From the NCBI RefSeq assembly GCF_033060595.1, contig NZ_CP133038.1, forward strand, positions 2,046,001-2,110,000: a stretch of DNA of 64,000 bases, read 5' to 3'. This DNA is from Pyramidobacter sp. YE332. GTDB taxonomy: Bacteria; Synergistota; Synergistia; Synergistales; Dethiosulfovibrionaceae. Position 1 is the stretch's first letter. Each line of letters starts with the position of its first letter. The notes beneath the pieces were generated by a model. It was not told where the DNA came from, ran no database searches, and worked only from the letters and a program-made list of their open reading frames with translations. Below are positions 41,360 to 45,567 of the stretch, piece after piece. The position numbers and the translations under genes were made by a program.

Positions 41360-42304
41360 TCACGCGTCTTGCGGCTGCGACAGCGGCACGCGCAGCGCCG
41401 CGATCAGTTCCGGCGGCAGCGGCGCGCGGAATTCGAGCCGCTCGCCGCCGACGGGATGGCGGAACCCCAGCCGCCACGAATGCAGAAACACGCGGTCTTT
41501 GAGGATGTGCTGCGCCGGATCCTTGGGGCCGTAGAGCGTGTCGCCGTCGAGCGAACAGCCGAGCGCGCGCATGTGCACGCGGATCTGGTGCGTGCGGCCC
41601 GTGTGCAGCCGTACCCTGATCAGAGTGTAACGCGCCCGCGTCCAGAGGACTTTGTAATCGGTCACGGCTTCGCGCCCGTCCCACGACACGCACATCTTCA
41701 GGCGGTTGCGAGGATCGCGGCCGATCGGCGCGTTCACCGTGCCCTCGGACGATCTCAGCGTGCCGACGCCCAGCCCCAGATACTCCTTGAGCACTTCGTG
41801 CGCCTGAAACGCCTCCGTCAGGCCGCGAAAAGCCGCGTCGCTGCGGGCCACGATCATCAGCCCCGACGTGCCCGCGTCGAGACGGTGAACGATGCCGGGC
41901 CGCACCGAATCGCCGATGCGGCCGATCTCCGGATAGCGGAACATCAGGCCGTTGACCAGCGTGCCGTCGGGACGCCCGGCGCCGGGATGCACGACCACGC
42001 CCGCCGGTTTGTTGACCACGATCACGTCGTCGTCCTCGTAGACCACGTCAAAGGGCACGTCCTGCGCCGCGATCTCCGCCGGCGCGGCCTCGGGAATTTC
42101 CACGCGGTAAATCTGGCCGGGTTGAATTTTGAAGGCCGGGCGAATCTTTTTCACCTGTCCGGAACTGACGGCGCCTCCGTCGATCAGGCTTCGGGCGCGG
42201 CTGCGCGACAGCGAAAGCTCGCCGGCGAGAAAAAGGTCGAGGCGCGCGCCGGAATCCTCTTCGGGGACAGCCAGCTCGTAAATTTCGCGATTCGCGTTTT
42301 CCAT
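41360..42304 (-). CDS. RluD-family pseudouridine synthase
   Basis: A 314-residue RNA pseudouridine synthase of the RluA/RluD group, acting on 23S rRNA or tRNA. An S4 RNA-binding domain covers residues 20-65. The catalytic aspartate is Asp143 in HRLDAGTSG (140-148), and GRTHQIRVH near 237 is the other conserved motif. ATG 42304 is preferred; a GTG at 42319 is also possible. A terminator separates it from ileS upstream. Confidence 0.93.
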   Translation of the reverse strand: MENANREIYELAVPEEDSGARLDLFLAGELSLSRSRARSLIDGGAVSSGQVKKIRPAFKIQPGQIYRVEIPEAAPAEIAAQDVPFDVVYEDDDVIVVNKPAGVVVHPGAGRPDGTLVNGLMFRYPEIGRIGDSVRPGIVHRLDAGTSGLMIVARSDAAFRGLTEAFQAHEVLKEYLGLGVGTLRSSEGTVNAPIGRDPRNRLKMCVSWDGREAVTDYKVLWTRARYTLIRVRLHTGRTHQIRVHMRALGCSLDGDTLYGPKDPAQHILKDRVFLHSWRLGFRHPVGGERLEFRAPLPPELIAALRVPLSQPQDA

Positions 42305-42327
42305 TCGATCGATCACCACTCCATCAT

Positions 42328-42421: not shown

Positions 42422-45184
42422 CTACTTTTTCTCAATGACGCACGCGCAGCGGCGGCACAGTCCGTCGGCGTGAGACGTCTCTTCGTACTTCCAGCAGCGC
42501 GGACACTTCGTGCCTTTGGCGGGGAACACTTCGACGCGGATGTCGTCGTCGCTTTCCACCGTCTCGCCGAACTCGAAGCCCGAAGTGATGCACACCATCG
42601 CCCAGTCCTCGGCGCTCATGGCGTTTTTGTAGAACTCGGGCGCGGCGACGGCGACGCGAGCTTCCAGCGCCTGGCCGATCTTGCCGGCGGCGCGTTCGGC
42701 TTCCAGCGCCTTGCTGACGAGGCCGCGCAGGAATTGGACTTTCTCCCATTTTTCCACAAGCGTGCCGTCCGTCTCGGCAGGATCCGCTTCCGGCCAGCCG
42801 CCCAGAAAGACGCTCTCGGCCAGCGAAGGCTCGATCGTGCGCAGCTGTTGCCAGATCTCCTCGGCGGTGAAGCTGATCACGGGCGCGAGCATGCGCGCCA
42901 GCGCGCAGACGGCCTTCCACATCACCGTCTGGCAGGCGCGGCGGCTCAGGCCGTCCGCCGCGTCGGCGTAAAGGCGGTCCTTGCTGGCGTCGAGATAGAA
43001 CGAGCTCAGTTCGTTCACGCAGAACTGATGAATGACGGTGATGGGCATGTGGAAATCATACGCCTCAAAACCTTCCGTCACGCGCTCGACGACGCGGTTC
43101 AGCAACGACATGGCCCAACGGTCGAACTCGGGCATCTTGCCGAACGGCACGGAATCCCTGGCCGGCTCGAAGCCGTTCAGGTTGCCGAGCATGAAGCGGG
43201 CCGTGTTGCGGATGCGGCGGTATTCCTCCGACAGGTTCTTGATGATGCCGTCGGAGATGTGCACGTCGCTGCGATAGTCGGCGGAAGCCACCCACAGGCG
43301 CAGGATGTCCGCTCCGTCGCGATTCGTGATCCTCTCGGGAGCGACGCCGTTCTGCAGCGATTTGGACATCTTGCGCCCCTGTTCGTCGACGATGAAGCCG
43401 TGCGTCAGGACGGCCCGGTACGGCGCTTTTCCGGCCACGGCCACGGAAGTGAGCAGCGAGGTCTGGAACCAGCCGCGGTGCTGATCGGCCCCCTCGAGAT
43501 ACAGGTCGGTCGGCCAGTTCAGATAGGGACGGCTGGGCACGTCCATGACGGAGAAGTGGCTCGCGCCGGAATCGAACCACACGTCGAGAATGTCTTCGCC
43601 CTTCTTCAGATGACGACTGCCGCAGCGAGGGCAGACCGCCAGATCGCCGAGCAGATCTTCGGGCGTGCTCGCCCACCAGACGTCGGAACCGGCCCCGGCG
43701 ACTTTTTCCGCGACGCGGCGGATACGGGCGGCATCGAGGATCGTTTCATGACAGTCTTCGCACTCGAACGCCGGGATCGGCACGCCCCACACGCGCTGAC
43801 GGCTGATGCACCAATCGGAGCGCTCGGACACCATGTTGTAGATGCGGTCGTGTCCCCAGCCGGGGATCCATTTCACCTCGTTGTCGATCACGTCGAGCGC
43901 GCGTTTCTTGAACGCGGCGACGTCGATGAACCACTGCGGCGTGGAGCGGAAAATGACGGGCTTGTGACAGCGCCAGCAGTGCGGATAAGAGTGCGAGATC
44001 TTCTTCAGGCCGAGCAAACGGCCGTTGGCTTCGATCACTTCCAGCGCCTTGCGGCCGCCCTTGTCCAGATCCAGGCCGGCGACGACGGGCGTGTCGGACT
44101 TGTAATGTCCCGTGGCGTCGACGGGATTGTAATTTTCGATGTGATAGCGCTGTCCCGTCTCGAAATCCTCGACGCCGTAGGCCGGCGCCGTATGAACGCA
44201 GCCGGTGCCGGCCTCGAGCGTGACGTATGGAGCCAGCACGAGCGGCGTTTTGCAGGGATACATGGGATGATTGGCGGCGAGCAATTCCAAGTCTTTGCCC
44301 TTGACGGTCAGCAGGCGTTTGGAGAAATCGAGCCCAGTGTCGCGCGACACCGAATCGGCCATGCCGTCGGCGATCAGGTAAACTTTGTCGCCCACCTCGA
44401 AAAACGAGTAGTCGAAGTTGGCGTTCAGCGTCACGGCGCGGCTGGCGGGCAGCGTCCAGGGCGTCGTCGTCCAGACCACGACGTTCACGTCGCGTCCTTT
44501 CAGCGCGGGGAATCGCTCCGCCGCGTCATCGTCCATCTGATAAGCGACGAACACCGAGGGCGACGTGACGTCGGCGTACTCGATCTCGGCCGCGGCTTCG
44601 GCGGTCTGGCAGTCGATACACCAGTACACGGGCTTGGTACCGCGGTAGACGAAACCTTTTTCCACGATCGTGGCCAGCGTTTCCAGTTCGCGGGCCTCGA
44701 ATTCCGGATTCAACGTCAGATACGGCTCGTCCCAGAGCGAGAAGCAGCCCAGGCGCTTCATGCCCTCGCGCTGCACGTCCACCCATTTGAGCGCGTAGTC
44801 GTGGCATTTGGAGCGGAGTTCGAGCGCCGGCGTCGTGTCCTTGTTCAGGTGCTCGTCCTTGAGCACTTTCAGCTCGATGGGCAGCCCGTGCGTGTCCCAG
44901 CCCGGCACGTAAGGCACGTAGTAGCCGCGCATCGACTTGTACTTGACGATGAAGTCCTTCAGCGACTTGTTGAGCGCGTGCCCGATGTGGATCGCGCCGT
45001 TGGCGTAGGGCGGCCCGTCGTGGAACATGAAGGAGCGGCGGTCCTTGTTGCTCTCCAGCATTTTTTTGTAAATCTCGTTCTGTTCCCAGAATCTGACCGT
45101 TTCCGGTTCTCTCTTCGCCAGTCCGGCCCGCATGGGGAATTCCGTCACCGGCAGCTGAAGCGTCGATTTGTAGTCAACCGACAT
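42422..45184 (-). CDS. ileS: Isoleucyl-tRNA synthetase
   Basis: A 920-residue class I synthetase that charges tRNA-Ile and edits mischarged valine. The HIGH motif is GAIHIGHALNK near residue 65, the editing domain lies near 190-390 (VWTTTPWTLPAS), and the KMSKS motif is GRKMSKSLQNG near 595. The C-terminus has the zinc cysteines CPRCWKYEE and CRRC near 890-915. The length is normal for the bacterial type with C-terminal zinc ribbon. Its 250-base leader holds a short Ile-rich reading frame and a terminator, which suggests attenuation. Confidence 0.97.
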   Translation of the reverse strand: MSVDYKSTLQLPVTEFPMRAGLAKREPETVRFWEQNEIYKKMLESNKDRRSFMFHDGPPYANGAIHIGHALNKSLKDFIVKYKSMRGYYVPYVPGWDTHGLPIELKVLKDEHLNKDTTPALELRSKCHDYALKWVDVQREGMKRLGCFSLWDEPYLTLNPEFEARELETLATIVEKGFVYRGTKPVYWCIDCQTAEAAAEIEYADVTSPSVFVAYQMDDDAAERFPALKGRDVNVVVWTTTPWTLPASRAVTLNANFDYSFFEVGDKVYLIADGMADSVSRDTGLDFSKRLLTVKGKDLELLAANHPMYPCKTPLVLAPYVTLEAGTGCVHTAPAYGVEDFETGQRYHIENYNPVDATGHYKSDTPVVAGLDLDKGGRKALEVIEANGRLLGLKKISHSYPHCWRCHKPVIFRSTPQWFIDVAAFKKRALDVIDNEVKWIPGWGHDRIYNMVSERSDWCISRQRVWGVPIPAFECEDCHETILDAARIRRVAEKVAGAGSDVWWASTPEDLLGDLAVCPRCGSRHLKKGEDILDVWFDSGASHFSVMDVPSRPYLNWPTDLYLEGADQHRGWFQTSLLTSVAVAGKAPYRAVLTHGFIVDEQGRKMSKSLQNGVAPERITNRDGADILRLWVASADYRSDVHISDGIIKNLSEEYRRIRNTARFMLGNLNGFEPARDSVPFGKMPEFDRWAMSLLNRVVERVTEGFEAYDFHMPITVIHQFCVNELSSFYLDASKDRLYADAADGLSRRACQTVMWKAVCALARMLAPVISFTAEEIWQQLRTIEPSLAESVFLGGWPEADPAETDGTLVEKWEKVQFLRGLVSKALEAERAAGKIGQALEARVAVAAPEFYKNAMSAEDWAMVCITSGFEFGETVESDDDIRVEVFPAKGTKCPRCWKYEETSHADGLCRRCACVIEKK

Positions 45185-45257
45185 GATGCCTCACCTCTTG
45201 ATTTAAATTGTGCTCCGCGTCATAGGCGGAATTCATGAACCTGTCCGAACACACCGC

Positions 45258-45299
45258 AAAAACAACAGGGAGGAAAGAGCCGCGCCCCGTCCTCCCTGT
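45258..45299 (-). terminator. Attenuator hairpin in the ileS leader
   Basis: ACAGGGAGGA and TCCTCCCTGT (45290-45299 and 45265-45274 on the plus strand) form a 10-bp stem followed on the minus strand by TG and T5. It lies 17 bases after the stop of the leader peptide and 74 bases before ileS. Confidence 0.8.
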
Positions 45300-45315
45300 A
45301 TTGCTCCACGACAAA

Positions 45316-45405
45316 TTATAGCGTCGCCAGAGGAAGAGAACACGATGCATCGGCCGCCGCTATAATAATAATGACGCCTTTGTACTGACACTCAGCCGCA
45401 TACAT
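45316..45405 (-). CDS. Putative ileS leader peptide with four Ile codons in a row
   Basis: A 29-codon frame on the minus strand begins at ATG 45405 after a strong GGAGGTGGAG site, 29 bases from the predicted transcription start. It reads MYAAECQYKGVIIII, then about 14 more residues. Codons 12-15 are ATT ATT ATT ATA. It is followed by a terminator and then ileS, the layout of classic leader-peptide attenuators. Stalling for lack of charged tRNA-Ile would free the TTCCTC region near 45340 to pair with the GAGGA of the terminator's first arm. Too small for standard gene finders. Confidence 0.75.
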   Translation of the reverse strand: MYAAECQYKGVIIIIAAADASCSLPLATL

Positions 45406-45440
45406 CTTCTCCACCTCCGTAATAAGTAGTGTTGAATGTG

Positions 45441-45469
45441 ATTTTAGCAGTCCCGCTCTGCTTCGTCAA
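45441..45469 (-). promoter_or_regulatory. ileS: Promoter of the ileS leader transcript
   Basis: Minus strand TTGACG, 17 bases, TAAAAT. Transcription should start near 45434, 29 bases before the leader peptide and about 250 bases before ileS. Confidence 0.82.
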
Positions 45470-45510
45470 TCGTTTTCGTGTCGGGACGATCCCCGCACCA
45501 TCGGCCATTG

Positions 45511-45550
45511 AAAAGCGGCCCCGCCTTGAAAGAGAAATGGCGGGGCCGCT
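45511..45550 (-). terminator. Terminator upstream of the ileS promoter
   Basis: AGCGGCCCCGCC (45514-45525) and GGCGGGGCCGCT (45539-45550) form a 12-bp perfect stem followed on the minus strand by TTTT. It ends transcripts from the feo-side genes. Confidence 0.85.
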
Positions 45551-45567
45551 CGTTTGCGGTAAGATTC

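Follow-up and report, generated by a model that had tools for sequence, protein, structure and literature searches.

The isoleucyl-tRNA synthetase gene (ileS) of Pyramidobacter sp. YE332 appears to stand behind a classical ribosome-mediated transcription attenuator that would sense the supply of charged tRNA-Ile, a reading to which we give a probability of about 0.87. The enzyme would very probably be made in larger amounts when charged isoleucine tRNA is scarce. We worked on a stretch of 64,000 nucleotides, called the window below, in which ileS and its leader lie on the minus strand (Table 1). An initial annotation of this DNA had proposed that a leader peptide with Ile codons attenuates ileS. 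We found this supported by the parts, which are present in order, and by the same plan in a second genus of the family Dethiosulfovibrionaceae (genome G006); the coordinates and description given in the annotation were right to within one base. The leader elements, their spacing and the retention of the plan in the second genus can be read from the sequences themselves.

Table 1. Features of the ileS region in the window, listed in the direction of transcription.
Feature	Position	Strand	Sequence	Remarks
Strong terminator-like hairpin	45510-45567	-	GGCCCCGCC..GGCGGGGCC-GCTTTT	Separates the ileS promoter from the upstream genes
Promoter	45441..45469	-	TTGACG-N17-TAAAAT	Sigma-70 type, 10/12 matches, TG-extended -10; -35 TTGACG 45469-45464, -10 TAAAAT 45446-45441, spacer 17 nt
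Shine-Dalgarno (SD) of leader ORF	45414..45418	-	GGAGG	From sequence
Segment 1	SD and bases up to 45407	-	GGAGGTGGAGAA	Potential partner: segment 2
Leader peptide ORF	45316..45405	-	MYAAECQYKGVIIIIAAADASCSLPLATL	29 codons; ATG 45405, stop TAA 45318-45316
Four consecutive Ile codons	45361..45372	-	ATT ATT ATT ATA	Codons 12-15
Segment 2	45330..45340	-	TTCTCTTCCTC	Potential partner: segment 1 or segment 3 (folds)
Segment 3, terminator 5' arm	45290..45299	-	ACAGGGAGGA	Folds and sequence
Segment 4, terminator 3' arm and T tract	45258..45274	-	TCCTCCCTGT and TGTTTTT	
ileS, isoleucyl-tRNA synthetase	42422..45184	-		920 aa; NCBIfam TIGR00392, 902 bits vs cut-off 621
RluA/RluD-type pseudouridine synthase	41360..42319	-		TIGR00005, 275.8 bits

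The consensus promoter described in the initial annotation is borne out, and the 29-codon frame, its ribosome site and the Ile codons were all found where they had been placed. The terminator after the leader stop codon is there too, but we counted 16 nt between the stop codon and the stem instead of 17. This intrinsic terminator, ACAGGGAGGA(N15)TCCTCCCTGT TGTTTTT, spans 45299-45258, between the leader ORF and the ileS ATG at 45184, and its hairpin has a predicted folding energy of -24.5 kcal/mol in Pyramidobacter and -20.4 in G006. Our simple terminator scan did not list it because the scan has a loop limit of 8 and its count is interrupted by a mismatch beneath the inner stem. The Ile run uses the minority codons ATT and ATA (genome usage is ATC 75%, ATT 16% and ATA 9%), so the leader may be the more sensitive. 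Since the terminator-like hairpin at about 45567-45510 precedes the promoter, ileS appears to form its own transcription unit. In Rfam that hairpin also resembles CcsR1, but weakly and under the threshold (23.5 bits vs 65.3), which is likely due to chance. The pseudouridine synthase gene comes next after ileS on the same strand and is possibly co-transcribed with it; a 301-aa frame similar to this protein follows ileS in G006.

We scanned both strands of the window for an SD, an ORF of 8-45 codons with at least three of four identical residues of any amino acid, and a terminator, and the ileS leader was the sole match. Among first-order Markov sequences of the leader's composition, 1 in 20,000 had an Ile-rich ORF with a terminator, and none had one with four consecutive Ile codons. 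The genome was searched by pattern: GGAGG-N4-12-ATG-N9-39-(ATH)3 occurs at four places in the whole genome, and the pattern read backwards occurs at none. The ileS leader is the only short ORF of this SD-ATG-Ile3 type that has a terminator. The other three matches are the start of ribosomal protein L23, the start of an acyl carrier protein and an out-of-frame stretch of an adhesin-like gene, as identified from the gene sequences. On the window scan, the Markov null and the genome-wide pattern, we rejected the idea that the leader is a chance ORF. A second apparent leader with four Ile codons in the same genome (MPYSARIIIITTIS, at G000:C1:2348156) was rejected as it is out of frame within a long adhesin-like gene. 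Within 1500-base flanks of the valS, leuS, metG-like, pheS and tRNA-synt_2b genes of the Pyramidobacter genome G000 and of G006, we found no credible leader of the same kind; what remains there is a set of chance-level frames rich in Arg, Lys, Pro or Gly.

Conservation of the Ile run and the terminator in relatives had been suggested as a check on the proposal, and both were found in four Pyramidobacter sequences as well as in G006. The leader is present in every Pyramidobacter sequence with a readable ileS, namely the window, G001, G003 and Pyramidobacter sp. C12-8, whose IleS matches that of the window in every residue. A DNA search gave no match in G002 and G004; these are fragmented assemblies that also have no recognisable ileS and so tell us nothing about the leader. 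Both promoter hexamers are identical in all four sequences. The share of variable columns is 23% just upstream of the -35 box, 4.7% from the promoter to the SD, 4.4% in the leader ORF (4 of 90 columns, with frame and length kept) and 10% from the T tract to the ileS SD. Ile codons 12-15 are invariant, and from the leader stop codon to the T tract there are no substitutions at all, with a single indel in the T tract.

G006 is a one-contig, 1.68-Mb genome from another genus of the family, probably Jonquetella, and its ileS is 62% identical to that of Pyramidobacter. The two leaders cannot be aligned as DNA, the longest exact match being 10 nt. Upstream of ileS in G006 there is nevertheless a promoter, an SD, a 20-codon ORF with three consecutive Ile codons (ATT ATT ATA) and a terminator, in the order TTGACC-N17-TAAAAT, AAAGGGGGAG, MRQNRRFGIIIDGVSRSLSW, AAGAGAGCGGGA-GAG-TCCCGCTCTCTT-TTTT, ileS. 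The plan has been kept where the sequence has not, and this is our main argument that the leader is functional.

In both Pyramidobacter and G006, three mutually exclusive helices can be drawn: 1:2 between the SD strand and a pyrimidine tract that follows the Ile run, 2:3 between the pyrimidine tract and the 5' arm of the terminator, and 3:4, the terminator itself. The transcription start, the stalling, the in vivo folding and the isoleucine response are inferred. Transcription would begin just past 45441, and ribosomes would translate the leader of 29 codons. When Ile-tRNA is ample, the ribosome would reach the stop codon at 45318-45316 and cover part of segment 2, helix 3:4 would form and most transcripts would end near 45258. 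When Ile-tRNA is scarce, the ribosome would stall at codons 12-15 and leave segment 2 free to pair with segment 3 before segment 4 is made, and RNA polymerase would continue into ileS. If the leader is not translated at all, the 1:2 pairing would permit the terminator and mask the ribosome site of the leader. The footprint of a stalled ribosome reaches some 12 nt past the first A-site base. Segment 2 starts about 20 nt past the last Ile codon in Pyramidobacter, and its equivalent in G006, CTCGCTCTCTCTC, about 10 nt past the Ile run, so in both cases segment 2 would lie outside the stalled footprint and the spacing fits attenuation.

The leaders fold better than all 200 of their shuffles (z of -5.1 in Pyramidobacter and -3.6 in G006), and this excess stems mostly from the terminator and the 1:2 helix. 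The 1:2 duplex was better than 1982 of 2000 shuffles in Pyramidobacter and 1997 of 2000 in G006. For the 2:3 duplex in Pyramidobacter, 759 of 2000 shuffles were equally good. We also compared the sequestration of segment 3 with shuffles, and 149 of 1000 did as well in Pyramidobacter and 3 of 1000 in G006. In constrained folds that leave out the upstream RNA and in which segment 4 is not yet made, a ribosome at the Ile codons lets segment 3 and the segment-2 region pair with a probability of 0.70-0.73 in Pyramidobacter and 0.83-0.91 in G006; once the ribosome stands at the stop codon, the values are 0.02 and 0.43. When the SD strand was left free, the results were mixed, and 1:2 still wins at some stall positions. 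With no ribosome, the terminator has a probability of 0.91 in Pyramidobacter and 0.98 in G006, and in the finished transcript it wins even with a stalled ribosome, so the attenuation model leans on co-transcriptional kinetics.

It is plausible that 2:3 serves as the antiterminator in Pyramidobacter, where it fits by geometry but is not significant by itself. The initial annotation had drawn an antiterminator between TTCCTC and the GAGGA of the terminator arm and had remarked that this was a weak point. The remark is justified (149 of 1000 shuffles do as well), but the best-supported alternative helix is a different one, that between the SD strand and the pyrimidine tract. It had also suggested folding the leader for exclusive structures: these can be drawn, and 2:3 goes beyond the shuffles in G006 but not in Pyramidobacter. 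We consider it an even bet that a Synergistota clade which has lost the synthesis of branched-chain amino acids brought ileS under an Ile leader-peptide attenuator with the leader's SD strand as segment 1, in which case one pyrimidine tract would govern both re-initiation on the leader and termination.

The 1:2 helix also speaks for a different reading, in which the leader is a switch for general translation. It would respond to ribosome supply or to translation-blocking drugs by hiding the SD and through ribosome-polymerase coupling, and the Ile run would be only a slow spot. This fits with the SD:pyrimidine-tract helix being the best-supported alternative structure in both genera and with the weakness of 2:3 in Pyramidobacter. 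However, both genera have kept a run of just the amino acid that the downstream gene handles, although the rest of their leader peptides differs. Without Ile sensing this is hard to account for, and we regard a general switch as quite unlikely. The folds could also be taken to mean that the terminator is a fixed brake that holds ileS at a constant low level behind an incidental ORF, as no antiterminator comes near the terminator in strength once the transcript is finished. We find this even less probable: the SD, the frame and the Ile codons are conserved, the plan recurs in G006, and the null sequences give such an ORF with a terminator only once in 20,000. Least probable of all is that an internal promoter drives ileS and leaves the Ile codons unread in its mRNA, for although there is a 9/12 promoter-like site at 45391-45362 (GTGTCA-N18-TATTAT), the promoter scan saw 2 such sites around the leader where chance alone would give about 0.5, and a transcript starting there would still have the terminator ahead of ileS. 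The initial annotation had named a start only at the TATAAT of 45315-45320 as one of the cases that would count against it; this is unlikely, as the promoter scan found no acceptable -35 for the box and it reads TGTAAT in Pyramidobacter sp. C12-8.

The distribution of the leader was followed in the ileS upstream regions of 56 of 61 Synergistota genomes and at 21 named loci, 77 in total; some of the named loci belong to the same genomes and some lie outside Synergistota. No ileS leader of the same kind was found in the 52 other Synergistota genomes examined; all seven genomes of g2, the family's third genus (named relative: Dethiosulfovibrio, L015), lack it. The leader-bearing genomes form one clade on the ileS tree with a support of 100/100. 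Ile-rich ORFs before ileS in G050, G039, G044 and G031 were rejected as they have no SD or belong to a membrane-protein gene that lies upstream. Three loci of the third genus (L032, L034 and L036) have a G+C-rich hairpin in place of the leader, about 20-50 bases upstream of ileS. It reads GCCGCC..GGCGGC or GCCGTC..GACGGC followed by ATTTCC or TTTTCC, just before the ileS ribosome site, and a TACAAT -10-like box stands ahead of it. Similar hairpins are found at L005, L007, L008 and L033.

The usual regulator of ileS in Firmicutes and Actinobacteria is the T-box riboswitch (RF00230). It serves the same gene and the same signal, tRNA-Ile charging, but the sensing in Pyramidobacter would need a translating ribosome instead. 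The T-box covariance model gave no match at the ileS of the window with E up to 1, in line with the absence of a T-box that had been noted from the letters, and there is none before ileS in the 52 leader-less Synergistota genomes either. We therefore rejected a T-box as regulator of Pyramidobacter ileS: T-boxes occur elsewhere in the genome and none at this gene. The Gram-positive setting in which the absence had been discussed does not apply, as Pyramidobacter belongs to the Gram-negative Synergistota, a phylum with about three T-boxes per genome and none at ileS. In G000 the three T-boxes (L001, L002 and L003, at G000:C1:2430299, 2577274 and 2689021) score below the Rfam cut-off with E of 1e-10 or better, and precede an ABC-transporter binding protein, a lysA-like gene and an asd-like gene. 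Most Synergistota have similar numbers, and G006 has none. No Rfam leader family (His, Trp, Leu, Phe and Thr leaders and others) reaches its gathering score at the leader, G006 included; the scan of the window leader gave two chance-level matches, both under the gathering score.

We looked at isoleucine biosynthesis in the same genomes. No Pyramidobacter genome has IlvC, nor does G006; each of the seven g2 relatives has it, and the overall count is 42 of the 61 Synergistota genomes. For acetolactate synthase (TPP-enzyme N domain), nothing scored over the cut-off in G000 and G006. With neither enzyme, the cells probably depend on external isoleucine, and on this gene content the leader-bearing cells are probably unable to make it. 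The leader occurs in 4 of the 16 IlvC-lacking genomes examined vs 0 of 40 with IlvC. We count this association as a single event, since all leader genomes fall into one clade and 12 further genomes that lack IlvC are without a leader; the same 12 genomes led us to reject the loss of IlvC as a sufficient cause of the leader. The whole of G000 also has no chorismate-binding (TrpE-type) protein over the cut-off, and a strain auxotrophic for branched-chain amino acids and tryptophan is the probable interpretation.

Attenuators with leader peptides are known from other synthetase genes. The pheST operon of Escherichia coli has one with a Phe-rich leader peptide; as proposed here, a synthetase operon is governed by a leader peptide in which the cognate amino acid abounds, together with alternative helices and an intrinsic terminator, although the amino acid, the gene and the phylum differ. 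Enterobacterial ilv operons (ilvGMEDA) have leader peptides with Ile codons and an attenuator. They control biosynthesis, whereas G000 has neither IlvC nor acetolactate synthase. Leader-peptide attenuators have been predicted for trpS and leuS of Streptomyces, synthetase genes that likewise follow a candidate terminator and a leader ORF containing cognate codons, and in the same work the ileS genes of several Actinobacteria have translational T-boxes and no leader peptides (PMC1262725). The hisS/hisZ paralogues of Bacilli have a His leader peptide, which for hisS replaces a T-box at a synthetase gene for another amino acid in another phylum (PMC2965389). The uORFC-8-2 motif before cysS of Rhodobacterales has conserved tandem cognate codons ahead of the synthetase gene, again with another amino acid and phylum (PMC8632094). 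For Synergistetes, a study of histidine genes describes a protein repressor, HisR (PMC9413887). Another paper, whose text does not mention ileS, proposes a CodY-like regulator for Synergistota (PMC9318921). Our literature search, with most subscription papers outside its coverage, found no paper on a leader peptide at ileS or in Synergistota, which agrees with the initial annotation that had known of no described case in this group.

The ileS leader adds to the leader-peptide control already known or predicted for the synthetase genes pheST, trpS, leuS, hisS and cysS. Leader peptides for branched-chain amino acids have mostly been described at biosynthetic operons, and the regulator associated with ileS is the T-box. 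Should the reading with the SD strand as segment 1 be right, no earlier leader-peptide attenuator would be on record for ileS or have been shown in Synergistota, which would join the phyla with leader-peptide attenuation. The system is compact, at less than 200 nt, and its predictions can be tested simply. Its presence in an apparent isoleucine auxotroph suggests that this regulatory logic can be applied to the synthetase where no biosynthesis is left to control.
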